From the IMG/VR virus record IMGVR_UViG_3300029922_000031, positions 1 to 64,000 of that record: 64,000 bases of DNA; one strand, given 5' to 3'. Made by a program: the position numbers and the translations under genes. Numbering within the stretch: position 1 is the first letter of the stretch; each line of letters begins with the position of its first letter. The stretch comes from a virus. Positions 10,142 through 54,375 of the stretch are shown here, piece by piece. Under the pieces are notes generated by a model, which saw only the letters and a program-made list of their open reading frames with translations, did no database searches and was not told where the DNA came from.

Positions 10142-10353
10142 TTGGTCTCCTCGCCGACGAGCTGATAGCGGCTGTTGCGGGTCTCGATCCCACCAAAACC
10201 GTCGGTTGCGACGACGAAGCTGGTGTGAAACCCTCGCTCGCCCGCGTAATACGGGTGATCGAGTGACTTGCCGTAGATCATATAACCGAGGCCGCCGTCG
10301 CACTCCACCTTTCGCCAGTTGACGATTCGGCCCAGAAAGGGTTTGTCATTCAT
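10138..10353 (-). CDS. Hypothetical protein, 71 aa
   Basis: MNDKPFLGRIVNWRKVECDG with Gly/Tyr-rich body (GYMIYGKSLDHPYYAGERGF), coupled to rtcB by ATGA. Likely first gene of the rtcB operon, behind the duplicated promoter-like element at 10378-10427. Function unknown. Confidence 0.6.
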   Translation of the reverse strand: MNDKPFLGRIVNWRKVECDGGLGYMIYGKSLDHPYYAGERGFHTSFVVATDGFGGIETRNSRYQLVGEETK

Positions 10354-10377: not shown

Positions 10378-10427
10378 GATCTATAATGACGCGCGAATAG
10401 TTGATCTATAATGACGCGCGAATAGTT
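10378..10427. repeat. Perfect 25-bp tandem duplication with promoter-like core
   Basis: Two exact copies of a 25-base unit starting GATCTATAATGACGCGCGAA lie at 10378-10402 and 10403-10427. On the minus strand each holds GTCATTATAGATC, resembling the -10 part of the window's promoters, and the pair covers the last 15 codons of thyX just upstream of the 10353 start. Confidence 0.85.
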
Positions 10428-14658: not shown

Positions 14659-14925
14659 TTAGATCGTTGCTTTGCGCGTTCGGTCTTCATTGATATGGCC
14701 TACGAGGCCCAGCAGAAGAATGCCAGCAGTCGATAATACGAAGGCCAGCATCCCCATGACTAACAGGCCAAGGCCGCTCAGCACGACGAGGATGGGCAGA
14801 ATCACGTTGGCGACGAAGCGCGTGGGTGCCCAGCCGACCGCGACCTTGAGCGCTACGGCGACGGAATTGAACCAACTGGCGTTACGCTCATAGGTCACGC
14901 GGGGCAGGGTGATCTTTATGTTCAC
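14659..14925 (-). CDS. Small membrane protein, 88 aa
   Basis: GTG at 14925 is coupled to the exonuclease stop (GTGA). Two long hydrophobic segments (FVANVILPILVVLSGLGLLV and MLAFVLSTAGILLLGLVG) form a helical hairpin; the C-terminus NEDRTRKATI is charged. Function unknown; it lies at the end of the operon. Confidence 0.65.
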   Translation of the reverse strand: MNIKITLPRVTYERNASWFNSVAVALKVAVGWAPTRFVANVILPILVVLSGLGLLVMGMLAFVLSTAGILLLGLVGHINEDRTRKATI

Positions 14926-15467
14926 ACAGTCTCCTTGGGTAGTTCGAACCACTTCCAGTCACACCCGCGGAAGAAGCACTCGACCATTACCTCAACATCG
15001 TAGCTGGCGGCGTGGGCCTTCGCAGGGTCGTAGGGAACGTCGCAGGCGAAGCACAGCTCGCCAAGGTTGGGTAGCTTGCCGTTGGGCGTCGCCCATCTCC
15101 CCGAGAGCATCGTGTCGAAGCTCGGCGTGGTGATCAGCGGGAAGCCGCAGCGCTTGAGCTCCTGATTGAGGTAGGGCACGTCGAAGCCGTCGCCGTTGTG
15201 GGCGACGATTAGATCCGCATCGCCAAGAAAGGTGATCAAGTGCGGCGCGATGGCGTGGAACGTCGGCTTACCGATCAGATCCGAGGCGCTGATGCCATGA
15301 ACGCGCTGTGCGTCGGCAGCGATCGAGCGCTCAGGGTTGATCCGGTATTCCAGCACGCGCTCGCGCTTGTGAGTGTCAAAGTCCCACAATCCAGCGTATA
15401 CCTCAATGATTCTGTGGTCAGGCGTAAAGAGCCCGGTCGTTTCAGTGTCTAGGCCGACGATCTTCAT
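14922..15467 (-). CDS. DnaQ-like 3'-5' exonuclease (DEDDh), 181 aa
   Basis: Exo I VGLDTETTGLFT (residues 4-15), Exo II in ADLIVAHNGDGFDVPYLN (~85-103) and Exo III KAHAASYDVEVM (~158) give the complete D-E-D-D-H set. Related to the DNA polymerase III epsilon proofreading subunit. The phage DnaE in this window lacks an integral exonuclease, so this protein may proofread for it, though the two genes are 20 kb apart. Coupled to the next gene by GTGA. Confidence 0.85.
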   Translation of the reverse strand: MKIVGLDTETTGLFTPDHRIIEVYAGLWDFDTHKRERVLEYRINPERSIAADAQRVHGISASDLIGKPTFHAIAPHLITFLGDADLIVAHNGDGFDVPYLNQELKRCGFPLITTPSFDTMLSGRWATPNGKLPNLGELCFACDVPYDPAKAHAASYDVEVMVECFFRGCDWKWFELPKETV

Positions 15468-19231: not shown

Positions 19232-19794
19232 GAGCGGATGCCGCTTGAGCCGAAACCGCCGGCGCCGCGCACCGTGTCGTTGAGTTGGGTGACTTCCTGG
19301 AACGGCAGGCGGATGGCCGGGGTGATGACCATCTGGGCGATGCGATCGCCGCGATAAACGAAGAAGTCCTCTTTGCCGTGGTTGATCAGAATGACGCCAA
19401 CCTCGCCGCGGTAGTCCGCATCGATCGTGCCGGGCGCGTTCAGGACCGTGACGCCGTTCTTGAGCGCCAGGCCGGAGCGCGGCCGAATCTCGATCTGGAG
19501 GCCGGGCGGGATTTCGAAGGCGAGGCCGGTCTTGATCAGCTCGCGGCCGCCCGGCCGGATCAGCGTGACCGCCCAAGCGAAGTCGGCGTAGAGATCGGCG
19601 CCGGCGGCGAACTGCGTCTCATAGGTCGGCAGCTTCGCCTCGGGATGGAGCTTCTTGATCCGCAGGGGCGGGATCATCGCCTGCAAGTGCTGCTGTTGCG
19701 CCCGCATCTGCTGCTCGGCCTTGAGCTGGGCAGCGACGTCAGACGGGAGATCGTCAACGCCAAGCAGCTTGAAACCCTTTGGAAATCCGTTCAT
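19228..19794 (-). CDS. dut: dUTP diphosphatase (dUTPase), 188 aa
   Basis: Trimeric dUTPase motifs in order: AGADLYA (I, ~65), PRSGLALKNGVTVLNAPG (II/III, ~105-125), TIDADYRGEVGVILINHG (III), RGDRIAQMVI (IV, ~150) and RGAGGFGSSG (V, C-terminus). Converts dUTP to dUMP, feeding ThyX and keeping uracil out of DNA. An extra N-terminal helix of about 40 residues (VAAQLKAEQQMRAQQQHLQA) is Gln-rich and not typical. Confidence 0.95.
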   Translation of the reverse strand: MNGFPKGFKLLGVDDLPSDVAAQLKAEQQMRAQQQHLQAMIPPLRIKKLHPEAKLPTYETQFAAGADLYADFAWAVTLIRPGGRELIKTGLAFEIPPGLQIEIRPRSGLALKNGVTVLNAPGTIDADYRGEVGVILINHGKEDFFVYRGDRIAQMVITPAIRLPFQEVTQLNDTVRGAGGFGSSGIRS

Positions 19795-28016: not shown

Positions 28017-29066
28017 TTACGATGCGACGGTCGTTACTGCCGTCATGATCTCTCGACAGGCGTCGATGACTGCGGGGTCGCCGATCGTGTCGTTGATGTA
28101 TTTAGCGATCGATGCCTCAAGACTTGTGATCTTGGCCGGGGCCGAGCCGGTGCGGGCGGAGATGACCTCGCGCGCAACCTGGAACGAGACGCCGGCCGCG
28201 CCCATAGCCCGCAGCTCCTCGCCCATCTGCTTGATCTGCTCGTTGGTCATTTTCAGACCACGAATACGGACGTAGTTACCGTCCACGATCAGCGGAATTT
28301 CCTCGGGGTCGGTGTTCTCGTCGATGTCCACGAAGCTCGGCGCGCGCGAGGCGTTCCAGCGAACGCTCTCGTCGTCGACGATCAGGAAGCCAGCCTTGGC
28401 GGCGACGTCGCTCCAGGTCTGCGGAACAAGAGCGCCGATGGAATAGATGCCATTTTCCAGATACTTATGGTGATGATAATGACCGGACATCACCCGCTTG
28501 AAACCCCACTTCGCGATCTCCTCGATCGACAGTCCGTGATCAGGCACATCGATCAGAACACCGTTGATCCCCGTGTGAAGGATCAGATCGAAGTCTCCGG
28601 TGCTGGTGAGAGAGCTGGCAATGGCGTCGACTGCCGCACGCACTCCATCGGCGCTTGAAATCCACGGCACAAAGACGATGCCCTGACGAACACAGATCTC
28701 TGTAATGACCGTGAAACCCTCGAGTGCTCCAAGCGTCTGAATGGCGTTCCCTAGCTCCGTCGTCTCCTTGCCTTTAAGATCATGGTTCCCGACGATCGCC
28801 TCGATGGAGACACCGCGCGCCAGGATTCGACAGAAAGCCTCGTGAACGGGGTTGAAGACCTCCGGATCGATGCTTCCTCGAACGTGAAAAGTATCACCCG
28901 CAATGATCATCCGAGTTCCGCCGGCTTTCAGCAGCGTGTCCGCGGCTCGTTCTAGCTCGTCGATGGCAATCCGCAGACGCGAGTTGATGCCATCCGCGCT
29001 CGGCTTGGCAAACTGACTCCAACCGTGAAAGTGCATATCGGAGACGACACAGCGAGGATTAAGCAT
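28017..29066 (-). CDS. sbcD: SbcD/Mre11-like metallophosphoesterase (T4 gp47 type), 349 aa
   Basis: ATG at 29066 (MLNPRCVVSDMHFHGWSQF) overlaps the HNH gene end; longer versions run through that gene. Calcineurin-type motifs SDMHFH, AGDTFHVRG, VGNHDLKG and SGHYHHHKY are all present. Nuclease partner of the SbcC-like ATPase. The C-terminal helix bundle (MTNEQIKQMGEELRAMGAAG) probably contacts the coiled coil. Confidence 0.9.
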   Translation of the reverse strand: MLNPRCVVSDMHFHGWSQFAKPSADGINSRLRIAIDELERAADTLLKAGGTRMIIAGDTFHVRGSIDPEVFNPVHEAFCRILARGVSIEAIVGNHDLKGKETTELGNAIQTLGALEGFTVITEICVRQGIVFVPWISSADGVRAAVDAIASSLTSTGDFDLILHTGINGVLIDVPDHGLSIEEIAKWGFKRVMSGHYHHHKYLENGIYSIGALVPQTWSDVAAKAGFLIVDDESVRWNASRAPSFVDIDENTDPEEIPLIVDGNYVRIRGLKMTNEQIKQMGEELRAMGAAGVSFQVAREVISARTGSAPAKITSLEASIAKYINDTIGDPAVIDACREIMTAVTTVAS

Positions 29067-29586
29067 GAGCCCATCTCTTTCTAGTTGCGATGCCTGAGAT
29101 TGTTTGCTGACTGATACCATATAGTCGGGCTATTTCATGCTGCGGAATACTACCGCACAGTGATCGAATTTCTTTCACTTGGGCGATTGTAACCCGAGCG
29201 TTCCCGTTGCGCTCGCCGCGATTATCTGTGCCATGTCTGTTGCGATCGAGTTGATTTTGCGAGCGCGTACCGTATTCTAGATTGTCGGCGCGGCGATTGA
29301 GACGATCACCATCTTGATGACGAACCTCCTGACCGGGAGGTGTTGGGCCGATAAACGCACGCGCCACAATAATGTGAACGCCAATACGCTTGCGTTGTCC
29401 ATTCTTACTAAGATCAAGCATCGGATAGCCGTGAGTACCCGGCGAGTCGCGTAAGACGATTCCGCGTAACGAAAAGAGCCTGCCGTCCTTGGTTCGCACA
29501 ACGCGATCTAAGCTCTTGACGCGACCGAGGCTCGAGACCTGATAGCGGCCCTCGTAACCCGCAACGTCGCGCCACTCCTCGATCAT
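29059..29586 (-). CDS. HNH homing endonuclease with NUMOD4, 175 aa
   Basis: N-terminal NUMOD4 (EEWRDVAGYEGRYQVSSLGR), HNH core VRHQDGDRLNRRADNLEYGT at ~85, and a C-terminal helix-turn-helix (QHEIARLYGISQQTISGIA). Free-standing mobile gene: its ATG is coupled to the MazG-like gene and its end overlaps the sbcD start by 8 bases. Likely moves by cutting nearby phage DNA lacking it. Confidence 0.9.
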   Translation of the reverse strand: MIEEWRDVAGYEGRYQVSSLGRVKSLDRVVRTKDGRLFSLRGIVLRDSPGTHGYPMLDLSKNGQRKRIGVHIIVARAFIGPTPPGQEVRHQDGDRLNRRADNLEYGTRSQNQLDRNRHGTDNRGERNGNARVTIAQVKEIRSLCGSIPQHEIARLYGISQQTISGIATRKRWAHA

Positions 29587-34549: not shown

Positions 34550-35626
34550 TTAGATCGCGTCGAGCTCCGCGAGGATCGAATTGACCTCGCTCGGATCGAG
34601 ATCGGTCGACTCTTCCATCGCCGTGCCCGGCGCCGAAGGTGCGGGCTTCTCGACGGCCGCAGTTTTCTCGACGGCCGCAGTCTTGGCCTTCGCCGCCTTC
34701 GCCTTCGCGGCGGCCGCAGTCTTGGCGGCGTCAGCAGCGTCGGCGGCGGCAACCAGTCGGCGCATCTTGTCCATTTCGGACTCGACCGCCACGACGGGCT
34801 CGGCTTCGGTTTCGGTAGCGACGATCTCCTCGGCGATCTTCTCGATCTCCGGATCGACCACCGCTTCGGCGACACGCGCCGACGGACTGGTCAGCAACGC
34901 CGCCGATCTCGGCCCAGCGATCGCAATGCCCGACGTCGAAATGCCGGTCATGTTGACGATGGACGTGATCGCCTTCGTCTCTTCTCCGCGGAAGAACTCG
35001 CGTTCAACCAGGGCGAACAGGTCGACGGCCTTGTCGATCGACGCCTTCGAAACAGGCTTCGCGCTGGGGTGAGGCATGACGGTATATTTGGTGTCGAAGC
35101 CCTTGCCAGTGCGCTCGATGGTGAAGTCGAAGCCCTTCTCGTAGTCGAGAATGTTGCCACTCTCGGCCTCGTATTCGTCGATCATGGAGAGGATCGTACC
35201 GAAAGTGGTCGGCGTCACCTCGAACGGAACCGGATCCTCGGAAGCATCCGGGCCGGAGCGAATGACGGCGTTCAACAGAACGGCCTTCTTCGCCTTCCAT
35301 TCCGTCATCAGCTTGATGTCGTCGTCGGAGACGGCACCCTTGATAGCGCGTTCGACAGCGGCGGCGACAGGACTCGGGGTGCCGTAGACGATGTCGGAGT
35401 TGCCGACGACTGCGACGGGCTTGCCGCCCATCTCGGTCTTGATCCAGTGGACGCCGTACTCGAGCCAGAACTGGCCGGGGACCGCAAGCGGACCCATCGC
35501 CTGGACTGGCAGAATGCGAAGACGGGTCTTGCCCTCCTTCGCCTTCTTGATCTCGTTGGTTCCACGAGAATATTTGTTCTTCGCGCCTTTGATCAGCGCG
35601 AGCATAGCGGGAGACATGGTAGCCAT
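34550..35626 (-). CDS. ssb: gp32-like single-stranded DNA-binding protein, 358 aa
   Basis: FWLEYGVHWIKTEMGGKPVA, then EWKAKKAVLLNAVIRSG, FEVTPTTFGTILSMIDEY and IERTGKGFDTKYTVMPHPSA give the OB-fold core as in T4 gp32-like proteins of phages. Residues ~270-330 are Ala/Lys-rich with repeats (KTAAVEKTAAVEK) and the C-terminus DLDPSEVNSILAELDAI is the acidic tail that recruits partners. Coats ssDNA in replication and recombination. Confidence 0.85.
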   Translation of the reverse strand: MATMSPAMLALIKGAKNKYSRGTNEIKKAKEGKTRLRILPVQAMGPLAVPGQFWLEYGVHWIKTEMGGKPVAVVGNSDIVYGTPSPVAAAVERAIKGAVSDDDIKLMTEWKAKKAVLLNAVIRSGPDASEDPVPFEVTPTTFGTILSMIDEYEAESGNILDYEKGFDFTIERTGKGFDTKYTVMPHPSAKPVSKASIDKAVDLFALVEREFFRGEETKAITSIVNMTGISTSGIAIAGPRSAALLTSPSARVAEAVVDPEIEKIAEEIVATETEAEPVVAVESEMDKMRRLVAAADAADAAKTAAAAKAKAAKAKTAAVEKTAAVEKPAPSAPGTAMEESTDLDPSEVNSILAELDAI

Positions 35627-36848: not shown

Positions 36849-39800
36849 TCAGATCAGTGATTGAACCGCGTCGAAGACCTTGATCAGGCTGTCGAATTTC
36901 TCGGGCGCATGGTAGATTTCACCCGGATTAAAGCCGACCACCAGGTTAGCGTCGTAAGTTGCGCTGTAGTGAATCGAGCCGGCGTCGTCCGAAGCCTTGC
37001 CCTTGAAGTCGGGCAGAAAGGTTCGCACGGTTGTCCCGCCCATCAGGACGATGATTGGCGGCTTGATGATGTCCAGTTCCTTGTCGAGAAAGGGGCGATA
37101 GGTCTTGAGCTCCTCGGCCGAGACCTGCTTGCCCTCCTTTGGACGCTTGATCAGCGCCGTCCAATAGCCCTGGTCGACCCGTAGGCCGACTTCATCCATC
37201 GCAGCCTGCGTCTGCTCGACCGCGTAGGGGCGCCGGCTAGGCGAGGACATGAACATCATATTGGCCTCTTCCTCGGCAGCCGAGGGCGCGTCGAAGATGA
37301 TGGCGAACTCGGCGTCCTCGGAAGCATAGGCTCGGACGGGCACGCCGTCCTTCACCACTGCCGAGAGCATGACGTTGTAGAGCTTCTCCAGGCGCCGGCG
37401 ATCGGGCTCCTCCAGGGCCATTTCCCGGTGGATGGGTACGATGCTCGTCACCAGGCCGGGGATTAGCTCGCGCTGGTCCTTGATCCTGGTCGGGCTATCG
37501 ATCGGGACGTGGGTCGGTTCGATCGCCGCGAAGCAGCCGATCCTATTAAGAAGTTCGATCTTAGCGACGTTGACCAGGCGTCTATTAACGCGCGCCGATA
37601 AGTCGGCCATGCTGTCGAACTTGCGATAGCCTGCCGTGCCGTCGCCTCTAGCCTCGACGATCGCCGCGGCCGCGTTCTCGGAAAGCCCTTTGACGCGCGT
37701 GAAAGGGATCATGAGCTTGAAGTCCGTGATGATTTCGAACCGCTCGGTGGCAAGGTTGATCTCGGGCATGTCGATCGTCACGCCATGTGAGGCGGCGTCG
37801 GCGAGTAGGGCAGGGAGCTTCTCGTCCTTCACCAGCGAGAGCGTCGCGGCGAAATACTCGACCGGATAGTAGGTCTTCAGCCACATCGCCTGGTAGGAGA
37901 TCAGCGTGTATTCGACCGAGTGAGACTTGTTGAAGCCGTAGCCGGCGAAGCCTTCGATCTTGTCGAACAGATGACCCGCCCATTCGACGTCGCAGCCGAC
38001 TGTCTTGACGCACCCGTCGACGAACTTGCCGCGCTCCTTCTTCATCTCCTCGGGCAGCTTTTTGCCCATAATCTTGCGCAGCTTGTCGGCGTCCGGCGCC
38101 GAATAGCCGGCGATCACACGCGACGCCTGCATGACCTCTTCCTGATAGACGAAGACGCCATAGGTCTCTTTTAGAACTGCCTCGAGCAGCGGGTGGTCGT
38201 ATTCGACCGTCTCGATGCCCTGCTTGCGCTTCCAATAGGAGTCCATCATCCCCGACTCCATCGGGCCTGGCCGGTAGAGCGCGGTGGCGGCCGTGATGTC
38301 CTCGAAAGTGATCGTGCCGTCCTTGCCGAGCTCCTTGAGCAGGCGCCTCATGCCGCCCGACTCGAACTGGAACACGCCGGTCGTCTTGCCGATCGCGAAG
38401 TTGCCGAGCACCTTCTCGTCGTCGAGCGGGATCGACATAAGGTTGACCTTCGCCGAGTGCCGCTTGCGGATGTATTGGGTCGTCAGGTCGATAATGTCGA
38501 GGGTTTCGAGGCCCAGAAGATCCATCTTGATCAAGCCCTGGTCCTCGACGATGCGCTTGTCCCAACAGACCACTTTCTCAGCGCCCGATCGGCGCTCGAC
38601 GACCGCGCGCTCGACAATGTCGCAGCCGCCGACGATGACGCCGGCAGCGTGCTGGCCGAGGTTGCGCATGACGCCTTCAAGCTTGAGGCAGACGCCCCAG
38701 ATGGGCGGGAACTTGTCGCGGAAGGCGCCGATCTCAGCGACTTGCTCAGCCGCTTCGGTCAGAGGGACGTGCGCACCGTGCTTCTTTGGGGTCAGCTTCG
38801 AGCAGCCGAACTCCCTCTCCTCGAGCCCGAACGCCTTCGCGACGTCCCGGATGGCCGAAGCCGGCCCGAGGGTGGAGAAGTTTGAGACGCCAGCGACGCG
38901 CGCTGTGCCGTATTTGTTGACCAGATACTCGACGACCTCATGCCGGCGGGCCGACATGAAGTCCAAATCGGCGTCAGGCAGATCGAGACGATCGGGGTTG
39001 ATGAAGCGTTCGAACAGGAGGCCAAAGCGAATCGGGTCGCATTCGGTGATGCCCATGAGGTAAGCGACGAGCGAGCCGCCGACGGAGCCGCGGCCAGGTC
39101 CGACGAGAATGCCTTGCGACTTGGCGTAGTTGACGACGTCCTCGACAAGCAGAAAGTAGCCGGAAAAGCTCAGCGACTTGAGGATCTGAAGTTCGTAGAC
39201 CAGCCGAGGTCGATAGACCGCCTCCAGCTCCGCCTTCTCGGGCTTGTGACCGAAGACCGAGGCGCTGAAACGCTTGGCCCAGCCGAGCTTGCACTTTGCG
39301 ACGACCGCAGCGAACTCATCCGGCGCCATCTTCGGCAGCGAAGGCTTCTGCTTCTTCCACTCGTAGTGAACCAGATCGACGAGCTTCTCGGTGTTCATCA
39401 GCCCGTCTCTAAACGCGAGCGCCGTCTCCTTGGGGTCCATTCCGCGGGCGTTCAGCCGCTTGCAGCCCTCGACCACTTGCGACGCCAGCGCCGCATTCGC
39501 CATCGGATGAAGATCGCGAAACGCCGGCGACTTGTTCCACATCGACGATAGCGGCGTGTTCGAACAGATCGCGCCCATCACCTCGGTCGCATCCGCTTCA
39601 TTCTCGTCGTAGCAGACGGGGCGTGTGACAAGCGGTAGGAAGCCATACGTGCGTGCCGCTTCGATCGCCTTCTTGTTGAGGGTGTCGAACAGCGGCGTGT
39701 TGACCGGCGTGAGCGTGACGAAGACATTAGAAGCACTGAGAGCGTCGCGAATTTTTGAGAGTATCAACGTAGCATCGCGATGCCCCAACACGCTGTAGAC

Positions 39801-40241
39801 GTCGCTAGAAGCGATTGCGACGTCGTCCGCGCTCAAGTCTGCGAGCGCTGCGAACAGATCGCTAAAGCCCAGTTTCGCGTTGTTATAGAAATGGGCCTCG
39901 TCGTTGGCGAGCGACAGCAGCCGAAACAGCGCCAGCAAGCCCTTCTCCGATAGGACGTAATAGGTCAGGAAGAACTCCGGCGGCGCCTTCGCCTTGCCCT
40001 CTTTGCGAGGCGGCTTGCGCCAGGTGAAATCGTCGACCAGCCGCAGCCGGCAGCCTACGATCGGCTTGACGCCTTTCTTTTTGCAACGATTGGTGAAGTC
40101 GATCATCGAGGTAACGTTCATGGTCTCGGTGAGAGCGACGGCCTTGGCCTCAGCCTTCACCGCGGCATCGACCAGCCGCTCCACCGATAGAATGGATTCT
40201 CCGAGAGAGAAGTTCGATCGAGCGGCTAAAATCGCGTGCAT
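36849..40241 (-). CDS. dnaE: DNA polymerase III alpha (DnaE-like) with UDG-like C-terminal domain, 1130 aa
   Basis: Replicative polymerase. ATG at 40241 has GAGGG upstream. Order: a PHP domain (~1-230) whose first metal motif is degraded to ARSNFSLGES (no H-x-H); palm with GPGRGSVGGSLVAYLMGITE (~385), PDADLDF (~420) and IKMDLLGLETLDI (~570) holding the three catalytic Asp; fingers and tail. From about residue 950 a domain TALIKRPKEGKQVSAEELKT, YRPFLDKELDIIKPPIIVLM and VVGFNPGEIYHAP looks like family-4 uracil-DNA glycosylase, without a clear GEAPG motif. Proofreading probably comes from a separate DnaQ-like protein. Confidence 0.93.
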   Translation of the reverse strand: MHAILAARSNFSLGESILSVERLVDAAVKAEAKAVALTETMNVTSMIDFTNRCKKKGVKPIVGCRLRLVDDFTWRKPPRKEGKAKAPPEFFLTYYVLSEKGLLALFRLLSLANDEAHFYNNAKLGFSDLFAALADLSADDVAIASSDVYSVLGHRDATLILSKIRDALSASNVFVTLTPVNTPLFDTLNKKAIEAARTYGFLPLVTRPVCYDENEADATEVMGAICSNTPLSSMWNKSPAFRDLHPMANAALASQVVEGCKRLNARGMDPKETALAFRDGLMNTEKLVDLVHYEWKKQKPSLPKMAPDEFAAVVAKCKLGWAKRFSASVFGHKPEKAELEAVYRPRLVYELQILKSLSFSGYFLLVEDVVNYAKSQGILVGPGRGSVGGSLVAYLMGITECDPIRFGLLFERFINPDRLDLPDADLDFMSARRHEVVEYLVNKYGTARVAGVSNFSTLGPASAIRDVAKAFGLEEREFGCSKLTPKKHGAHVPLTEAAEQVAEIGAFRDKFPPIWGVCLKLEGVMRNLGQHAAGVIVGGCDIVERAVVERRSGAEKVVCWDKRIVEDQGLIKMDLLGLETLDIIDLTTQYIRKRHSAKVNLMSIPLDDEKVLGNFAIGKTTGVFQFESGGMRRLLKELGKDGTITFEDITAATALYRPGPMESGMMDSYWKRKQGIETVEYDHPLLEAVLKETYGVFVYQEEVMQASRVIAGYSAPDADKLRKIMGKKLPEEMKKERGKFVDGCVKTVGCDVEWAGHLFDKIEGFAGYGFNKSHSVEYTLISYQAMWLKTYYPVEYFAATLSLVKDEKLPALLADAASHGVTIDMPEINLATERFEIITDFKLMIPFTRVKGLSENAAAAIVEARGDGTAGYRKFDSMADLSARVNRRLVNVAKIELLNRIGCFAAIEPTHVPIDSPTRIKDQRELIPGLVTSIVPIHREMALEEPDRRRLEKLYNVMLSAVVKDGVPVRAYASEDAEFAIIFDAPSAAEEEANMMFMSSPSRRPYAVEQTQAAMDEVGLRVDQGYWTALIKRPKEGKQVSAEELKTYRPFLDKELDIIKPPIIVLMGGTTVRTFLPDFKGKASDDAGSIHYSATYDANLVVGFNPGEIYHAPEKFDSLIKVFDAVQSLI

Positions 40242-40243
40242 TA

Positions 40244-40495
40244 TCAACCCTCTAGCATCCGCCAATGTGTGATCTGGACGCGATCAAACTGACCATTCGT
40301 CTTGATGAAGCCTTCGTAAGCTTCGAGCTCCGTCTGAAGACGAATGTTCAGCGCGCCGGTGAAGATCACCCGACCGCTGTCTTTGATCTCGCCCTTGATG
40401 AAGTCGAACCAGACAGCCAACTTCGACGTGTAGACGGTCGGCGCGGGCGTCATCGCAACCTGCTCGTCGGCAACGTCTTTATCGATCTCATTCAT
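40244..40495 (-). CDS. Hypothetical protein, 83 aa
   Basis: MNEIDKDVADEQVAMTPAPT then beta-rich VYTSKLAVWFDFIKGEIKDS and a helix. Two bases from the dnaE start. Possibly a polymerase accessory; not recognised. Confidence 0.58.
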   Translation of the reverse strand: MNEIDKDVADEQVAMTPAPTVYTSKLAVWFDFIKGEIKDSGRVIFTGALNIRLQTELEAYEGFIKTNGQFDRVQITHWRMLEG

Positions 40496-41035: not shown

Positions 41036-41668
41036 TTACCTGTATCTCTTGGCGGCGAGAGCCAGCTCACGATAGACCGCAGCGCGATCTGTCTTGGAAA
41101 GTCCCATGAAATCAAAGACCATTGCCGCGGTTACACGCCCAACAGCGAAGACGGCAATGTCGCGGCCGCGGCCTGACTGCGCGCGGGCCTGACTGTGCTG
41201 AACCGCGTCGAGAAGGAATTGCGGTGGCTTGTCGATCAGGTCGACGAACAACCGCGCCCGCGGCGAAAGCCGATTCATCACGAAGTCGCGGGTGTCGGCG
41301 CGTTCGAACGCCTCGATGCCGGATAGGCCAGCATCATCCTCGATCGCCTCGTGCAACCCGCCCGAATCTTCGGCGGGCTCGTCACCCGGCATTATGTCGA
41401 GCGAAGTGCATTGACCGTTGTCGATCTGATCCTGCACCCATCGGTTGATGTGGTGATGCATTCCTCGGCTCAGAAACGCCAGGAAGGGGACGCCGTATTC
41501 CTCGCTCCAGGCGTCCCGAGCCTTGCACCAGGCGATGCAGAGCTCCTGATAGATGTCCTGCGCCGTTAGGCTGGCGGCGCCGGCCGCGTGAGCGCGTCGT
41601 AAAACGCGCCACGCGAAGCTCTTGATGGCCTTGTCGTGCTGCGGCGTGAAGGCAAGCTGGGTGTTCAT
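41036..41668 (-). CDS. Sigma-70-like factor, 210 aa
   Basis: LTAQDIYQELCIAWCKARDA, WSEEYGVPFLAFLSRGMHHH and INRWVQ resemble sigma region 2 (D-x-x-QE, then A-W/Y-F-x-x-x-FL-R-HH-INRW). The C-terminal VTAAMVFDFMGLSKTDRAAV is a possible region 4 helix-turn-helix. ATG 41668 or GTG 41671 may start it; both overlap the CobS-like stop. May direct host polymerase to the GCTATA phage promoters. Region 4 is weak, so an anti-sigma or DNA-binding role is possible. Confidence 0.6.
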   Translation of the reverse strand: MNTQLAFTPQHDKAIKSFAWRVLRRAHAAGAASLTAQDIYQELCIAWCKARDAWSEEYGVPFLAFLSRGMHHHINRWVQDQIDNGQCTSLDIMPGDEPAEDSGGLHEAIEDDAGLSGIEAFERADTRDFVMNRLSPRARLFVDLIDKPPQFLLDAVQHSQARAQSGRGRDIAVFAVGRVTAAMVFDFMGLSKTDRAAVYRELALAAKRYR

Positions 41669-42828
41669 CACACGCCGCCAAAGACACGTTGAGCGAAGCC
41701 GTCGGCGGTCTCTTTATCGACGCGCGAGAGACGCGCAGCCCAGGCGGCGATCAGACCCGCCCGCCAGGCGCCACCCTTCATCACCGCGAAGCGCGCGGCG
41801 TTGATCAGCTCGCGCGGCGAGATCGTCGAGCCCAACCGGGCGGCCTTGAACGCCTCGCGAATGCTGTTGGCGAACTCGACGAGCTTGTCGGCGTCCTTTT
41901 TGTCGATGTTCGCCTGACCGGCGATCACCATCGACTCGACCTTCGGCTCCATGTAACCGATCTCGATCGTGACGCCGAAGCGCGAGAAGTTCGCGCCGTC
42001 CTGCATCTGGGTGCCCTGATAGAGACCCGTCTCGTCGCCGCAACCGTTCGTGTTGCCGGTCGCGACGAAGCGGAAGTTTGGGTGCGGCCGGATCACGCGC
42101 TGCGCCGGCGGAGCCTCTTTGATGTAGAGAGCCTTGCCTTCGAGAACCGGCTGATAGACCGAGAGAACGGGCGCGGTGCCGCGGTCATACTCGTCGGCGC
42201 AGTAGACGAAGCCTTCGAGCATCGCGACGGCCAGCGGACCGAGTTCGAACTTGGTCTCGCCTTCCTTGACGACATATTGCCCGATGATATGCGATTCCTC
42301 GGTGTTGACGGTGTGCTGGACGCGCATGAAGGGGCGCTTCGTGCGCGCCGCGATCTGCTCGAGAAGCGTGGTCTTGCCGGTGCCGTGATAGCCCCAGACG
42401 TAGAGCGGGGCCTTAAGCTCCTGTGCAATCAGGATTGACTTAAGGTTCTCGATGTCAAAAACGTAGTTCTGGTCCACGTCGGGCACGAGCTGTTCGGCTT
42501 CCGGCGTCAGCTCGGACATGACCGGGATCATGATCGGCTGGCCGCGCGCGTTCATCGCCGCCTTGACCTCGCCGAGAGCGAAGATTTCGTGCATCGGCTG
42601 ACGATCGCCGCCGACGACTTTGGCCTGCTCCTTCTGAGCCTGCTTGACGCGGATCATGCTCTTGGCGGCCTCGGAAAGGATGGGCTCGCCGGGGTATTCG
42701 CGCTGGTAGCGGGCAATGTCCCAGCCAGGATGATTCTCGCGAAGGTAAACTTGGATGGAGTGGCACAGTGCTCCGTCGAGCTTGCACTCGATTTTGCCGC
42801 CACCGATAGCGGGCGTCGTCTCCGTCAT
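41668..42828 (-). CDS. cobS: CobS-like AAA+ ATPase (MoxR group), 386 aa
   Basis: Walker A VWGYHGTGKTTLLEQIAAR (~143), Walker B MLEGFVYCADEYDRG (~205, CADEYD), sensor 1 FRFVATGNTNGCGDE (~260) and sensor 2 region ISPRELINAARFAV (~345). Together with the CobT-like neighbour it forms an AAA+/VWA pair. In bacteria CobS-CobT-CobN insert cobalt into hydrogenobyrinic acid diamide; in phages the pair's target is unknown and no CobN is seen here. Confidence 0.85.
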   Translation of the reverse strand: MTETTPAIGGGKIECKLDGALCHSIQVYLRENHPGWDIARYQREYPGEPILSEAAKSMIRVKQAQKEQAKVVGGDRQPMHEIFALGEVKAAMNARGQPIMIPVMSELTPEAEQLVPDVDQNYVFDIENLKSILIAQELKAPLYVWGYHGTGKTTLLEQIAARTKRPFMRVQHTVNTEESHIIGQYVVKEGETKFELGPLAVAMLEGFVYCADEYDRGTAPVLSVYQPVLEGKALYIKEAPPAQRVIRPHPNFRFVATGNTNGCGDETGLYQGTQMQDGANFSRFGVTIEIGYMEPKVESMVIAGQANIDKKDADKLVEFANSIREAFKAARLGSTISPRELINAARFAVMKGGAWRAGLIAAWAARLSRVDKETADGFAQRVFGGV

Positions 42829-42869
42829 GATCGTCTCCTTTGTCGCTGCGTCGCTGCAAACGATGCGCT

Positions 42870-42911
42870 GTTATCGCGCATCGTGTCTTGGTTCACAAGT
42901 CAATTCTGACT
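42870..42911 (-). promoter_or_regulatory. Promoter and palindromic operator before the CobS-like gene
   Basis: GATAAC (42870-42875) on the minus strand with the operator AGTCAATTCTGACT (42898-42911, perfect half-sites) upstream of it. Confidence 0.58.
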
Positions 42912-42915
42912 GGCG

Positions 42916-45294
42916 TCAAGCGGCAAGTAGAATCCGCTTGAGCTCCTTCATAATCGTCGAGGGGAGCTCCTCGATCCGCTTAAGAACAACATGCTTCGGG
43001 TAATAGTGCCGAACCGAGTCATCCATGATCCCGATACCGATCACCTCGATGCCGCGCTTTGTCGACTCCTCGATGACCTGATGGAGATGCGAATTTAGCG
43101 CAGCCTCTGGCCTTTCACCGCTACGATAGGTGTAGTGGGCGGCGGCCGAGGGCGACCCGTCGGACAGAACGATCAGCACCTTGCGCTTCTCCTTGCGCCT
43201 CATAAGACGAGTCGCCGCGACCTCGATGCACTCGCCATCGACGTTGTTGCGCAGGAAGTTCTGATGCTCGGCGGCGACCGCGAACCGCTGCTTGACCGCC
43301 GGCGTCAGACGCTCGTTGAAGTCCTTGTAGATTGGCATGTAGATCGGCTCGATGCGGCCGTATTGCTTGCCGATGCGAGCCTCCTCGGCCGTGATCAGAT
43401 CGTCCAGCGTGCGGTTCGCGGGAAGCGTCGTGAAGCCGAGCACCTCATGCGCGATCTTCACCCGTTCCAGCGTCTGCGAGAGGGCGTAGGCCGCCTGCAT
43501 CGCCGTCGTCATCTTCTTCCCGCCCATCGAGCCGGAGTTGTCGACCACCAGTCCGACCGCTGTGTCCTTCGACGTGTTCTCGTGGAGACGGCGGAAGACC
43601 CGATCGTCGCCGACGAGCAACTTGTGCAGGCTCGCCGCGTGCAGCCGACCCGACCGGAAGCCGGGCAGCTTGAGCACGTTCGAGCGGGACGCCATGAGCC
43701 GCTCAATGTCCTTTTGCATCGGCCCAATCATGTGCCGCGTCGAGCTGTCAAAAGACTCAAACTCCTCGTCCGTGACTTTACCCGTGATGACCGAGACGTC
43801 GTCGTAGTCCTTGGTGAAGACGCGATATTCGGCGCCGCGCGTCATCCGGGTCGCAAGATCGGTGATCTCGCCGACGATCGCGTCCTTGAATTTGTCGCCG
43901 TCGACCTCGATCTCCATGTCGGAGAACGCCGACGAACCCATGCCTGGATCCTTGCTTTCGCCGGACTCCTCTAGTTCGTCGCTGGGCTCTCCGCCGGCGG
44001 AACCTTCTCCAGCTTCTCCGCCGGACCCTTCGTCGCCTGCGTCGCTGTCGTCAGACTCAGACCCAGCGCCTGCGCTGCCATCGTCAGACTCCTCATCCTC
44101 TCCGCCGTCACTGGCAGACGTTCCGACTTCGCCGTCGTCGCCGTCTTCATCCCGCTCTCGATCGGCGGGCTCTCCGTGATCGTTGTCCCGTTCTCCATCG
44201 TCACCGTCGGCGTCATCCTCTGACTCCTCGGGGTCGACAGCTCCGTCACCGTCTCCGTCGCTCCCATCAGCATCACCAGCACCTTCGCTGGGGAGTTCCG
44301 AATCATCGCTCTCTGACTCACTCGAGCCAGAAGTCTCTTCATCCTCGGATTCATCTTCGCCTTTCTCGCCCTCGCCGGGCTTCTCGGTCTCTTTCGGTCC
44401 GTCAGCTTCCTCGCCGGCATCCTCCTCGGACGACTCGCCCTTGTCTTCGCTGGGCTTCTCGTCATCGCCAGTCGATGCTGACTTATCCTTTTCGGCAGAC
44501 TTTTCGCCGCCGGCACCCTCGTCTTCCTCGTCCTCGGGCTTGTCCTTGTTCGCGCCCTTGCCGTCGCTCTTGGTCTTCTCGGTCGAGTCCGACTTGGACG
44601 GCTCGGTCGGGGAGCCAGGCGGCGGAGCGGGCGGGGCAGGGGGCGGCGGCGGGCAGAGAACGCTGTGATAGACCTCTGCGATCGCGAAGGCGTCGCGGGT
44701 GTTCTTCATGCCCGTCATGCGAGCGCGAATGTCTTTCGGCAGCCCGTCGAGCAGCGACTTGACAAGCGGATGCTCCCAGTAGCCCTTGCCCGTCATCCAG
44801 TCATTGAACACCTTCTGGCCGCAAAGCGCGCGCGCCATCACGACGATGATCGCCTCGAACTCCTTCTTCGGATCGCCCTTGGCTTCCGCGATGTGCGGCT
44901 CGGTGATCTTCTTGAGGAAGAACTCGTGCAGTCGGCCGAGATTGTAGTGCGAGCCGGGGAACTTGTCGGCCATCCGCTTCTCGATCAGCGGATCTTCGAG
45001 CATGTTCCACAGGCCGTGCAGCTTCGCGCTCGCCCTGCGCTCCTTCATCTTGTAGGTGAACTCGGTGAAGAGGATGTGCGCAACCTCGTGGTCGATGAAG
45101 CCCTGGATCGCCATGAGCAACTCGGCCGTCGCAGTGTCGGGGATTTGCGGGATGTTGACCCGGATCGGCTTCCCGGCCTTGTCGTTCTCCACATACGCAG
45201 AAGCGCCTCGCTGAGTGACGACCAGCCCCTTGCCTGCAAGGAGCTGGGTCACTTTGACGATGACCTCGCGCATTAGCGCAATATCTTGATTCAT
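42916..45294 (-). CDS. cobT: CobT-like protein with HExxH and von Willebrand A domain, 792 aa
   Basis: N-terminal domain with HEVAHILFTEF (~68, HExxH type), a very acidic Asp/Glu/Ser/Gly region from ~220 to ~450, and a C-terminal VWA domain with the MIDAS sequence VVDNSGSMGGKKM (~590) and VLIVLSDGSPSAA (~720). This matches the CobT layout and partners the CobS-like ATPase just downstream. The acidic stretch makes strong shadow ORFs on the other strand. Role in phage unknown; chaperone-like remodelling of a target complex is one view, cobalamin supply another. Confidence 0.85.
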   Translation of the reverse strand: MNQDIALMREVIVKVTQLLAGKGLVVTQRGASAYVENDKAGKPIRVNIPQIPDTATAELLMAIQGFIDHEVAHILFTEFTYKMKERRASAKLHGLWNMLEDPLIEKRMADKFPGSHYNLGRLHEFFLKKITEPHIAEAKGDPKKEFEAIIVVMARALCGQKVFNDWMTGKGYWEHPLVKSLLDGLPKDIRARMTGMKNTRDAFAIAEVYHSVLCPPPPPAPPAPPPGSPTEPSKSDSTEKTKSDGKGANKDKPEDEEDEGAGGEKSAEKDKSASTGDDEKPSEDKGESSEEDAGEEADGPKETEKPGEGEKGEDESEDEETSGSSESESDDSELPSEGAGDADGSDGDGDGAVDPEESEDDADGDDGERDNDHGEPADRERDEDGDDGEVGTSASDGGEDEESDDGSAGAGSESDDSDAGDEGSGGEAGEGSAGGEPSDELEESGESKDPGMGSSAFSDMEIEVDGDKFKDAIVGEITDLATRMTRGAEYRVFTKDYDDVSVITGKVTDEEFESFDSSTRHMIGPMQKDIERLMASRSNVLKLPGFRSGRLHAASLHKLLVGDDRVFRRLHENTSKDTAVGLVVDNSGSMGGKKMTTAMQAAYALSQTLERVKIAHEVLGFTTLPANRTLDDLITAEEARIGKQYGRIEPIYMPIYKDFNERLTPAVKQRFAVAAEHQNFLRNNVDGECIEVAATRLMRRKEKRKVLIVLSDGSPSAAAHYTYRSGERPEAALNSHLHQVIEESTKRGIEVIGIGIMDDSVRHYYPKHVVLKRIEELPSTIMKELKRILLAA

Positions 45295-46816: not shown

Positions 46817-46846
46817 CTTCTAGCGCGCGGCTGATTCGGTTGTCAA
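46817..46846 (-). promoter_or_regulatory. Promoter of the antisense RNA
   Basis: Perfect -35 TTGACA and a -10 TAGAAG 18 bases away, on the strand opposite repC. It resembles a host sigma-70 promoter rather than the phage GCTATA family. Confidence 0.6.
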
Positions 46847-46893
46847 CAGTCTTCTGGCTGGTGAGCGCCCGAGCTTTGTCCAAAGGAGGACAA

Positions 46894-48045
46894 ATGCTTC
46901 AGACCGGCATTCGCCGCTTGAGCCCTGGCGCTCTAGCGGTCAGGGAGATTCGCGCTCAAAAGACCGAAGGTGTCAACCGCAGGGCGCTGCTCGCCGCGGC
47001 GCGCGACGCCAGCCAGGCTCTCGACCTTCGCAGCTCCGTGCGGCAGGTTCTTGGTGAGCTTGCCGCCTGCTATGGCGAACAGGAGCTCCAGCGCGGGCTC
47101 ATGGTCTGGCCCTCGAACGAGTATCTCTGCCGCAAGACGGGCTTGGCCGAGCGCACGATCCGTAAGTGCATTCGAGCCTTGATCGACGCCGAGCTGATCG
47201 AGCCGGTCGACAGCGCCAATCGCAAGCGCTTCGCCGTGCGCGGGCCTGGCGGGATCATTCGCGACGCCTACGGCTTCAATCTTGAGCCTATCTACGCCCG
47301 GCGCGCTGAGTTCGCCGGCGTGATCCTCGAGCACCAGCTTGCAGCCGCTCGTCGATCGGCGTTGTTCGACGAACTGACCATCCAGCGCAAGGGCGCCGAG
47401 GAAGCCCTGAGAGCGCTCAGGGCGAGCTTCCCCGCGGTCGAGTGCCACGAGCACGAAACGGCGATGATCGCGCTCCTGGCCACCCTGCCCCGCCGCTCAG
47501 GTAGGAGTGCGCCGGATGCTGCCGTGGCGGCGTGGTTGAATCTGAGAACCGCCTTGGAGAACCTGTTCTTCGAAGCCTCTCGAAATCAAAAAGAGTCCGG
47601 CAGAGCCGGCGATCCGTGCCGTCACAAAGAGCCAGACAAAAATTTCTCTATCGAGCTTTGCCAGAGGCAGCCGGAAGGCTGCGACCCGGTTCGTCAAAAC
47701 GAACAGCCAGCATTGGATCTGATCGTTGAAGCCTGCCCAGCGGCTGCGGCCTATTCCCGGCCTATCTCAAATGAAGATGACCTGATCCGGATCGGCCGGG
47801 AACTTCGGGGTTCGCTTGGAGCGTCAGCCGAGGCGTGGGTCGAAGCGACGGAAGGGATTGGATTACGGCGCGCGGCCGCGCTGGTGCTCTATGTTCTCCA
47901 GCTCGCCGACGATGATCAGAACTCGGGCGAGCAGAAGATCAGAAAGCCCGGCGGGCTGTTCCGTCACCTGGCGCGCAAGCTCGCCGAGGATCAGATGGAC
48001 TTTAACGCCGAGCTGATGGCTTTGCGCCGGCGACACCTGGCGTAG
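46894..48045 (+). CDS. repC: RepC-family plasmid replication initiator, 383 aa
   Basis: The only convincing plus-strand gene. ATG at 46894 is 4 bases after AAAGGAGG; an upstream ATG at 46840 has no site. RGLMVWPSNEYLCRKTGLAE, RTIRKCIRALIDAELIEPVD and FAVRGPGGIIRDAYGFNLEP form the RP-C N-terminal domain with its winged helix; the C-terminal part (EDDLIRIGRELRGSLGASAE) matches the RepC second domain. Residues 215-275 are variable. RepC binds the origin, which in repABC replicons lies inside repC itself; a locally AT-rich stretch near 47585-47650 is a possible site. No RepA or RepB is visible. Confidence 0.88.
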   Translation: MLQTGIRRLSPGALAVREIRAQKTEGVNRRALLAAARDASQALDLRSSVRQVLGELAACYGEQELQRGLMVWPSNEYLCRKTGLAERTIRKCIRALIDAELIEPVDSANRKRFAVRGPGGIIRDAYGFNLEPIYARRAEFAGVILEHQLAAARRSALFDELTIQRKGAEEALRALRASFPAVECHEHETAMIALLATLPRRSGRSAPDAAVAAWLNLRTALENLFFEASRNQKESGRAGDPCRHKEPDKNFSIELCQRQPEGCDPVRQNEQPALDLIVEACPAAAAYSRPISNEDDLIRIGRELRGSLGASAEAWVEATEGIGLRRAAALVLYVLQLADDDQNSGEQKIRKPGGLFRHLARKLAEDQMDFNAELMALRRRHLA

Positions 48046-51740: not shown

Positions 51741-52817
51741 CTATGCGTAGGGATTTCGAATCCGAAATTTTACGTCTAAGAGCGTCGAATATGACTCGGC
51801 CTTCCGGAAGCTCTCGCGCACGACGACGCCCGGCACCTCATTTGGATCCATGTCTTTGGGCAGCCGGGCGATGCGAACCCGCAGACCGAGACGCTGGAGC
51901 ATCTTTGCGGCGTCGAGGGCAGCGATTAGGGCGGCAGACTCGCCGTCCCACATCAGGGTTACTTCCTCGAGCCCGGCCGCCTTGAGCCGCAGGAAGCGAC
52001 CGAGCTGATCGTTGCCCGATGGATCGCCGTAGGAGAGGTGCTTGCCGAACGACCCGACGCACACGACACTGCGAAGATCGACCTCTTCGTCGAAGGCCAT
52101 TTTGGTGGCGATCACGTCGAAGGCGCCCTCTCCCATGCAGACGCGCTTCACACCGACGGCGTTCTGACCGTTGAAGAGATAGCGGCCGGTGCCGGGCAGG
52201 CCCTTGGGGAAGAGGTACTTGCTCTCCGAGTTGCCGGTGATGTCGCGGCCCTGGAAGGTGACGAACTCGCCGTCGAGATCGTAGACGGGGATGATAACCC
52301 GCATGTCGAACTTCTGGCCGCCTTTGGAGCCGTCTTCCTTCTTGAAGTTCCACCAGCCGGTCTCACAGAAGCGCAGATGGAAATGCTTGGCCATTTCGAC
52401 CGTGCAGCCGCGCTCCTCGAGATAGAGCAGGTTCTGACCGTCAGACGTCGGCAGCTCGAACGAGTTCGGGAATTCCGCCTTCTCGTTCTCGACCGCCGCG
52501 GTCGTTAGGCGGCGCGGGCGCCAGCCCTGCTCACGTAGCGCGGTGCGCGCGTGTTCGAATGTCTCCCGCCAGGAGCCGCCGAGGTGTTCGTGAATGAATT
52601 TGAGCTTGTTGAAGCCCTCGCCGCAGGAGAAGCAGTTGCCAATGCCGGTGTCGGCATTCAAATATATTTTCCAACGGCGCTTTCCACACGTTGGGCATTC
52701 GTGCAGTTGAAGCTGGCGGCCGCTGCGCCCGTGAACTGACTTAAAGGCGATGCCTTCGTTCTCGAGATAGGTCTCCAGATCGAGAACCTCCGTGATCTCG
52801 TCAGCGTCGTCTTTCAC
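51741..52817 (-). CDS. dnaG: DnaG-type primase, 358 aa
   Basis: Zinc ribbon HECPTCGKRRWKIYLN...GNCFSCGEGF (~38-70), then a primase core FDMRVIIPVYDLDGEFVTFQ (~170) and a TOPRIM-like VCMGEGAFDVIATKMAF (~235) and EVTLMWDGESAALIAALDAA (~290). Lays RNA primers for the DnaE polymerase with the DnaB-like helicase encoded two genes upstream. Shorter than bacterial DnaG; no C-terminal helicase-binding domain is clear. Confidence 0.85.
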   Translation of the reverse strand: MKDDADEITEVLDLETYLENEGIAFKSVHGRSGRQLQLHECPTCGKRRWKIYLNADTGIGNCFSCGEGFNKLKFIHEHLGGSWRETFEHARTALREQGWRPRRLTTAAVENEKAEFPNSFELPTSDGQNLLYLEERGCTVEMAKHFHLRFCETGWWNFKKEDGSKGGQKFDMRVIIPVYDLDGEFVTFQGRDITGNSESKYLFPKGLPGTGRYLFNGQNAVGVKRVCMGEGAFDVIATKMAFDEEVDLRSVVCVGSFGKHLSYGDPSGNDQLGRFLRLKAAGLEEVTLMWDGESAALIAALDAAKMLQRLGLRVRIARLPKDMDPNEVPGVVVRESFRKAESYSTLLDVKFRIRNPYA

Positions 52818-53017
52818 TGGTGAAACTCGAGGAAAGCCAGGCGCTTCTGCCGATCCAGCTTACGCTCAACGGCGTCGAGATAGTCGTCGACCTCGGGTGA
52901 AACGACGGTGGCGGGGACTGCTCGCATGGACCGGCGCCAATTGCGCGGCTCGAACCGAAGCTCGGTCTCTTTGTCGCCGACCTCGATCGCCAGTTGAATC
53001 GCGTGTGTTGCGATCAA
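52814..53017 (-). CDS. Hypothetical protein, 67 aa
   Basis: MIATHAIQLAIEVGDKETEL and a helical end (YLDAVERKLDRQKRLAFLEF). Coupled at both ends with helicase and primase genes, so possibly a helicase-primase linker; not recognised. Confidence 0.55.
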   Translation of the reverse strand: MIATHAIQLAIEVGDKETELRFEPRNWRRSMRAVPATVVSPEVDDYLDAVERKLDRQKRLAFLEFHQ

Positions 53018-54375
53018 TGGGGCAACTCCTTCCCGATAACTCCTTTGAGAAATTGCATTTTTGATCTGTCAGATTTTATTCTAAGGATGAAGCCGTCCTC
53101 GCTGTTTCGCGCGGCCGCAAAGAACAGGCGACACTCGCCGGCTAGGCGCTCAGGCTCGGTCGAGTTGATGGAGATGACAACGTCGGCGGTGCGAATCTTG
53201 TTCAGATCCTCGGCGACGTCGGTCATCCTGGCGACGGACGCCTTGGCGCCTTCGCGGTTGGTCTGCGTAGCAGTGAGAACGGCGGCGTTGTAGTCGAAGG
53301 CGATCGCGCGCAGATCGATGAAGATCGTCCGGAGATTCTCGCGCTCGACGTCTGAGCGGTTCTCCGGAGCCATGATGTCGCCGTAGTCGGTGATGATCAG
53401 GTCGAAGATGATGCCGCGGGCTCGGTGGCGATCCAGAACGCGCCGAACTTCCGAGCATTTGAGCGAGCCGGAGGCATACTCCTCGATGATATATTGCCCT
53501 GCCCGCTTCTGCGCGGCTTCGACCGCCTCCTGCACCTTGAACGGGTTCGTGCCGACCAGCTTGATCAGCATGTCGGAGACGCTGGCGTCGACGCGATCGG
53601 CGATGATCTTGGCGCCCACCTCGCACGAGAAATAGATGACGTTCTTGCCGCCCAGCGCCGCCTGTTTGCCGAAGTCGCCAAGCGACATCGACTTACCGCC
53701 CTTGGGCGGCCCCATCATCACCGAGAGCTCTTTGCGGCCCCAGCCGTGGTGGTAGAGAAGCTTATCGAACTCCTCAATCCCGGTCGGGATGCCGTCGCGC
53801 ACGCGAACACCAGACAGAAGGTCTTTGCGTTCGGTAGTGCGGTGCTCGATCTCGGCCCAATAGTCGTAGCTGTTGCCCTCCTGCCCGGCGCCGACCATCA
53901 GCGCCTCGGACATGAGCTTCTGAATCTTGCCGTATTCCTTTTTGCTGACCAGCTCGGCCGAGGTGAGAATCGCCTTCTCGACCGCGCGATTGCGGGCGAA
54001 GTCGGAGATCTCCGCGATGACCATTTCGCGGTCGCCGATCGGCGTGACGACCAGCTTCTTGAGCTGAATGACAACCTCCGGCAGAAGGTCGGAGCGAATC
54101 TTCTTGGCTTCGAATGCGCGCTTGACGACGTGCGCGAGCGCCGAGCCGGGCGCCTCCTTGAAGCGAGTGAAGTGGTCCAAGCCGACCGCGACCAACGAAG
54201 CGTTGATTTCGCTGTCGAAATACTCGGGCTTGATCAGACCGTAGGTTCGAACCGCAAACGAAGTGTCGCGCAGAAGCAGCGCGACGATCTTCGATTGGAT
54301 GCTCTCGCCGAAGTCGTAGCCCGGCTCCGAGGGGTCTTCCTCGGGTGCGATAGCTGTCGCCGCGGTCACGGTCAT
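53014..54375 (-). CDS. dnaB: DnaB-like replicative helicase, 453 aa
   Basis: An N-terminal helical domain, then the RecA-type core: IPTGIEEFDKLLYHHGWGRK (~200), Walker A MMGPPKGGKSMSLGDFG (~225), Walker B-like LIITDYGDIM (~330) and VLTATQTNREGAKA (motif H3 region, ~365). Hexameric 5'-3' helicase. An operator copy is located 42 bases upstream, inside the Hfq-like gene end. Confidence 0.88.
   Translation of the reverse strand: MTVTAATAIAPEEDPSEPGYDFGESIQSKIVALLLRDTSFAVRTYGLIKPEYFDSEINASLVAVGLDHFTRFKEAPGSALAHVVKRAFEAKKIRSDLLPEVVIQLKKLVVTPIGDREMVIAEISDFARNRAVEKAILTSAELVSKKEYGKIQKLMSEALMVGAGQEGNSYDYWAEIEHRTTERKDLLSGVRVRDGIPTGIEEFDKLLYHHGWGRKELSVMMGPPKGGKSMSLGDFGKQAALGGKNVIYFSCEVGAKIIADRVDASVSDMLIKLVGTNPFKVQEAVEAAQKRAGQYIIEEYASGSLKCSEVRRVLDRHRARGIIFDLIITDYGDIMAPENRSDVERENLRTIFIDLRAIAFDYNAAVLTATQTNREGAKASVARMTDVAEDLNKIRTADVVISINSTEPERLAGECRLFFAAARNSEDGFILRIKSDRSKMQFLKGVIGKELPH

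Follow-up and report, generated by a model that had tools for sequence, protein, structure and literature searches.

A family-4 uracil-DNA-glycosylase fold, predicted to be non-cutting, at the C-terminus of a phage DnaE polymerase

The replicative DNA polymerase of this virus, a C-family enzyme (DnaE), ends in a domain that, by sequence profile and structural model, is a family-4 uracil-DNA-glycosylase (UDG) fold. The domain takes up the last ~185 residues, and it has lost the residues with which UDGs recognize and excise uracil. The DnaE–UDG fusion itself has been known since 2013 (PMC3919608), and its role seems to be unstudied. New here are the wide spread of the fusion among phages and phage-plasmids, its apparently single origin, the uniform loss of the catalytic and uracil-reading residues, the members that keep three cysteines, and a set of conserved lysines. 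The window, meaning the whole 64,000-nucleotide stretch that was analysed, corresponds to the opening 64 kb of a virus record of 105,074 bases.

The polymerase and its C-terminal domain

The gene and its parts, in window coordinates, are these:

36849..40265, minus strand: dnaE, phage C-family replicative DNA polymerase; ORF of 1138 amino acids as called from TTG
39759..40220, minus strand: PHP domain with its metal-binding motifs replaced (residues 16–169, Pfam)
38004..39296, minus strand: Pol3 palm/thumb/fingers core (residues 324–754, Pfam)
37515..37784, minus strand: helix-hairpin-helix domain HHH_6 (residues 828–917, Pfam)
37452..37478, minus strand: DQRELIPGL, putative internal beta-clamp-binding motif (residues 930–938; from conservation and position)
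36852..37409, minus strand: family-4 UDG-like C-terminal domain, replacing the OB and tau-binding domains (residues ~953–1138; profile searches and AlphaFold/Foldseek)

Judged by its sequence, the ORF is a C-family polymerase, with PHP, Pol3 and helix-hairpin-helix (HhH) domains and an intact aspartate triad. Pfam divides the Pol3 core into DNA_pol3_alpha (324–585) and DNA_pol3_finger (588–754). The catalytic aspartates lie in PDADLDF (430–436) and KMDLLGL (580–586), which align with PDFDVDF and KFDFLGL of the E. coli enzyme. Met9 (ATG at 40241), near-invariant across the DnaE–UDG family, is a likelier start than the called TTG.

The initial annotation reported the first PHP metal motif as lost. 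So it is—the HxH has become A-R, near-invariantly in the family—and the damage is wider than was described, since the other aligned metal motifs are gone as well: compared with Taq DnaE, TDH is replaced by TET, IGYE by VGCR, FHLT by FFLT and NDGHY by RPVCY. This decay has an ordinary explanation, because the DnaE1s of alpha-, beta- and gammaproteobacteria also have extensive PHP-site substitutions (PMC3919608), and because the phage encodes a DnaQ-like exonuclease of its own. This and the other genes of the window that bear on the discussion are:

14922..15467, minus strand: DnaQ-like 3'-5' exonuclease, a separate gene, the likely proofreader
34550..35626, minus strand: phage single-strand DNA-binding protein (SSB)
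51741..52817, minus strand: DnaG-type primase
53014..54375, minus strand: DnaB-type helicase
10381–11331: ThyX
19240–19641: dUTPase
46840–48045, plus strand: RepC-type plasmid replication protein

Several comparisons place the tail among the UDGs, far beyond what chance would give. PF03167 (UDG) matches residues 983–1116 of the whole protein above the curated cut-off (E=4.2e-7), and matches the tail alone with 35 bits where the cut-off is 24.3. From the single sequence, phmmer finds the Sulfolobus UDG 4zbx in the PDB (E=1.7e-6). A profile of 36 tails, that of the window included, finds family-4 UDGs and UdgX there (E=1.6e-15 to 1e-11), a Sulfolobus UDG being the best, and in profile-to-single-protein comparison a Gloeothece UDG matches the tail profile with a probability of 97.9%. 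The AlphaFold model of residues 918–1138 (mean pLDDT 87.9, pTM 0.85) has the predicted alpha/beta/alpha fold of family 4. Its top 36 Foldseek matches in the PDB are all family-4 UDGs or UdgX (best E=3.2e-12), with TM-scores of 0.6–0.69 and ~20% identity over ~190 columns. In a model of the full-length protein (pLDDT 87.4), DnaE structures match most of the length, and UDG4 structures match separately.

The initial annotation had read the last ~180 residues as UDG-like from ALIKRPKEGKQVSAEELKTY, KPPIIVLMGG and NPGEIYH (residues 1113–1119), and had taken them to replace the usual OB/tau tail. The strings and the coordinates agree with the fold as modelled, and the profile searches and structure prediction it called for return a UDG, not an ordinary DnaE tail. 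OB and tau-binding (CTD) domains have no Pfam match anywhere in the DnaE protein. An ordinary OB/tau tail mistaken for a UDG is refuted by the model and the profile searches—Pfam, PDB profile, AlphaFold, Foldseek and the tree discussed below all give UDG—and we put its likelihood at practically nil. The typical DnaE1, of the E. coli type, has a C-terminal OB fold and tau-binding CTD, where this protein has the UDG instead; it conforms to DnaEX, in which PF03167 stands in place of both (PMC3919608).

The former active site

Family-4 UDGs are characterized by the motifs GE(A/G)PG, TN and HPS (PMC10359453). Aligned with them, the tail has only remnants:

37266..37295, minus strand: remnant of UDG motif A, FDAPSAAEEE (GE[A/G]PG in family 4)
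37137..37166, minus strand: remnant of the uracil-selecting strand and FeS loop, YWTALIKRPK (Y.TN..KCRPP in family 4)
36909..36929, minus strand: remnant of UDG motif B, NPGEIYH (HPS/HPA..LR in family 4)

Residues were counted over 86 distinct aligned DnaE tails, the window's among them. The Glu of motif A is Asp in every tail (86/86; Asp992, in FDAPS, in the window). The uracil-selecting Asn (position 1037) is A, G, S or T in all 86, Ala in the window, and the motif B His (position 1113) is N, S, A or G, again in 86 of 86, the window having NPG. The Arg of motif B is lost from the tail too. The aromatic residue of the pocket is not conserved either: one occurs near the stacking position in only 53/86 tails. 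The third FeS cysteine, that of the KC motif, is missing from all 86, and the window tail has none of the four (0/4). Ten tails (L003, L005, L052, L058 and L135–L140) keep three of the four, namely the CxxC pair and the last Cys; L003 and L058 belong to Acinetobacter and L005 to Pseudomonas, Pseudomonas phage hairong being one source of such tails, and in all ten the catalytic residues are already gone. The GEQPG motif of UdgX is absent as well, and the alignment has no loop corresponding to its R-loop, KRRIH, with the covalent His.

From these losses, of both the catalytic and the uracil-recognition residues, the UDG of the DnaE tails is predicted to be non-cutting. The suspicion in the initial annotation that the domain might not cut is borne out in the window by the disappearance of motif A, the uracil-selecting Asn, the motif B His and all four cysteines. 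With the Asn absent from 86/86 tails and no conserved aromatic in the pocket, canonical recognition of uracil is unlikely. The database label ‘uracil-DNA glycosylase’ is probably wrong about the function of such tails. A glycosylase that remains active with rearranged catalytic residues is imaginable, in that the invariant Asp992 occupies the position of the motif A Glu, with acidic residues after it, and might activate water. We rejected this on the residues of the alignment: the domain of the window has kept neither the Asn and His nor the FeS cysteines and the motif B Arg. A replicase with a cutting domain fixed to it would, besides, cut the template that it is copying at the fork, and we consider such an enzyme highly improbable. 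No second, active UDG occurs elsewhere in the 105,074-base record.

The residues that have been kept are as uniform as those that have been lost. T1036 and the two lysines next to the old pocket, K1040 and K1043, are invariant (86/86), position 1088 is K or R in all 86 tails, and position 1081 is R or K in 82/86. Mean column entropy is 0.70–0.74 bits at the former pocket motifs (1.26 at motif A), about half the domain mean of 1.4. Y1100, D1105 and N1107 are conserved and have no UDG4 counterpart. Some of this conservation may serve folding only. As to the order of loss, the three-cysteine tails fall outside the branch containing the window tail and the other cysteine-free ones, which suggests, from an outgroup-rooted tree with several weak inner branches, that catalysis and the third cysteine went first and the remaining cysteines later. 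There is one exception in the tree, L141, a cysteine-free tail that falls among the three-cysteine ones.

Possible roles of the domain

We give about an even chance to the reading that the dead UDG domain is a fixed, sequence-independent DNA grip, a processivity module near the clamp-binding-like motif, for which we infer DNA binding, a part in processivity and use of the host clamp. Such a grip fits best with a DNA-binding fold, a basic face that has been kept, and dead chemistry. An ancestral DnaE would have lost its OB fold and tau-binding domain, following the HhH/clamp-binding segment, and would have gained one family-4 UDG. The captured UDG would then have lost catalysis and uracil recognition, and kept its fold and strongly basic face. 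Seated in the place of the OB fold, it would grip the template or product duplex; the host beta clamp would bind the conserved DQ.EL.PGL segment; and grip and clamp together would allow processive synthesis without a tau tether.

There is a precedent, by analogy and not homology. Vaccinia D4, in the E9–A20–D4 complex, is a UDG with a role in processive synthesis that is independent of its glycosylase activity (PMC4450493). Unlike the DnaE tail, D4 belongs to family 1, is still active, and is joined non-covalently, via A20, to a B-family polymerase.

In C-family polymerases the clamp-binding motif sits between the HhH and OB domains (PMC3919608). DQ.EL.PGL is conserved at that site (Q931 in 79/86 tails, E933 in 74/86, L934 in 76/86), and QRELI occupies the expected place of the QL[S/D]LF pentapeptide, without its canonical final Phe; binding of the beta clamp through this segment is only plausible. 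The 105-kb record, possibly incomplete, has no match to DNA_pol3_beta, gp45 or delta', neither a sliding clamp nor a clamp loader being found, and since no phage clamp is found, the phage DnaE likely uses that of its host.

The domain could be, instead of a DNA grip, a protein-docking module standing in for the tau-binding CTD and linking the polymerase to the phage DnaB-type helicase, primase, SSB or a RecA-like protein, with no direct role at DNA. It sits where the tau-binding domain was, the loss of which removes the normal link to the helicase and clamp loader (PMC3919608). Helicase, primase and SSB are all encoded by the phage itself, and Y1100, D1105 and N1107 could make the interface. 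Pure docking has no need of the invariant basic pair, K1040 and K1043, at the old DNA-facing loop, and it names no partner; we regard it as a tentative possibility.

The initial annotation proposed a uracil sensor carried by the polymerase itself. More broadly put, the domain would be a non-cutting sensor, running along the template in front of the polymerase and halting it at uracil, another altered base or an abasic site. Few parts of the domain are as conserved as the former pocket, and in UdgX the family has a member able to bind uracil-DNA covalently (PMC10359453). Some PolA-fused UDGs, too, come from phages that encode a thymidylate synthase or a pyrimidine hydroxymethylase. The dUTPase and ThyX cited in favour of uracil sensing are indeed present; being common phage genes, they do not single it out. 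Against a sensor stand the same 86-tail counts for the selecting Asn and the motif B His, together with the patchy aromatic, and they leave its uracil form unsupported. The phage also has no candidate for a dUMP hydroxymethylase of the thymidylate-synthase type: PF00303 has no match in the 105-kb record, which may be incomplete, and on this ground DNA of the hydroxymethyl-dU type was rejected as the reason for the domain. Since no tail retains the uracil-reading Asn, the sensor is weakened and, in our estimate, unlikely.

Less likely again is a clade-wide reader with a pocket rebuilt around the invariant Asp992, Thr1036, Lys1040 and Lys1043. It would detect, without excising them, abasic sites or a modified base, no longer uracil, and would stall or re-aim the polymerase. 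Such a reader would be the C-family counterpart of the read-ahead pocket of archaeal PolB.

Origin, distribution and known relatives

Forty UDG domains (DnaE tails, cellular family-4 enzymes, UdgX and domains fused to phage PolA) were placed in a maximum-likelihood tree, where the 28 DnaE tails make up one side of a branch with 100/100 support, apart from all the others. A single capture of the domain by a DnaE lineage is the simplest reading. The same tail is found on homologues in RHEph10-type Rhizobium phages, nickie-like Pseudomonas phages, Stenotrophomonas phages and SSU5-like phages; in many records of plasmids (Klebsiella, Escherichia, Acinetobacter and others), matched at a loose cut-off that lets in a few ordinary UDGs; in many IMG/VR contigs; and in contigs of 109–118 kb in Faunimonas, Ancylobacter and Phyllobacterium genomes. 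Taken together, the carriers form a large clade of alpha- and gammaproteobacterial phages and phage-plasmids. The virus of the window encodes a RepC-type protein and is therefore probably a phage-plasmid of Alphaproteobacteria. Its relatives share a conserved block of CobT-like, CobS-like and DnaE genes, in most accompanied by an exonuclease and RecA. In the window, the CobS-like and CobT-like genes (41668–45294, minus strand) lie directly upstream of dnaE, a position conserved in Rhizobium, Pseudomonas and Salmonella relatives.

Three relatives have a fractured dnaE, broken at one shared place that corresponds to window residues ~751–757 (L026:5938-10140, L044:4763-8432 and L003:2201-6444). 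The N part comes first, then a gap, then the C part with the UDG domain; the gap holds a NUMOD4/HNH endonuclease in L003 and apparently in L026. The N parts end in a similar tail of ~45 aa, and the C parts begin with a KIASIEVL-like head. Full-length DnaEs of the SSU5 type (L004, which is SSU5, L049 and L061) have an in-frame fingers insertion of ~57 aa at the fracture site, before FNKSHS. The insertion resembles the tails of the fractured forms, and is reminiscent of a decayed intein fragment. A group I intron was rejected as the cause of the split, there being no Rfam match. The window has a free-standing NUMOD4/HNH endonuclease (29059–29586, minus strand), which overlaps the start of an sbcD-like gene (28017–29120), and an RtcB-like RNA ligase gene (8735–10303, minus strand).

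The closest known system is DnaEX. Timinskas et al. (2013) described replacement of the OB and CTD domains by an archaeal-type UDG (PF03167) in this additional polymerase of some Yersinia pestis and Salmonella enterica strains (PMC3919608), in one sentence that includes neither residue analysis nor function. The architecture, PHP–Pol3–(HhH)2–UDG with no OB or CTD, is the same. SSU5, a Salmonella phage with a polymerase of the DnaEX type, which stands in here for the Y. pestis plasmid copy, has a homologue 34% identical to the window protein. The window clade differs in being alphaproteobacterial and phage-borne, and in lacking the ~57-aa SSU5 fingers insertion. We found nothing further on DnaE–UDG in the literature beyond PMC3919608; earlier mention is possible in Aravind and Koonin (2000) and in Kazlauskas and Venclovas (2011), and the fusion goes unmentioned in a 2026 survey of bacterial polymerases. 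With the family-4 UDGs of Thermus, Sulfolobus and Thermotoga, and with UdgX, the tail shares fold and order of motifs; it differs from them in having no GE[A/G]PG, TN, HPS, FeS cysteines or KRRIH loop, and in being covalently part of a polymerase.

UDG4-type domains are also fused to phage replicative polymerases of the A family, in SPO1 and others, with the UDG at the N-terminus, the opposite end from the DnaE tail, and on a different polymerase family. These PolA fusions (SPO1-like, Lysinibacillus, Almagne and Lebethron) are, on the tree, separate from DnaE–UDG, because their UDGs do not group with the DnaE tails. The aligned PolA-fused UDGs keep the motif B His, and one, that of L063, keeps all the cysteines and the Asn. 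The A-family polymerase in question (L063:3869-6283) has an N-terminal UDG with GEAPG, TN, HPA and four cysteines, and may represent the fusion of an active UDG to a replicase. The same phage has genes for thymidylate synthase and for a pyrimidine hydroxymethylase-like protein. Among predicted viral structures, many more phage polymerases turn out to contain the UDG fold, which also recurs inside many A-family phage polymerases.

UDG folds have entered viral replicases in at least three separate ways: beside the PolB of poxviruses, inside the PolA of phages, and at the end of phage DnaE. That the DnaE tails have kept the domain despite losing its chemistry could show what the UDG fold offers a replicase beyond base excision, and the system could also show how a DnaE works without an OB fold and a tau tether.
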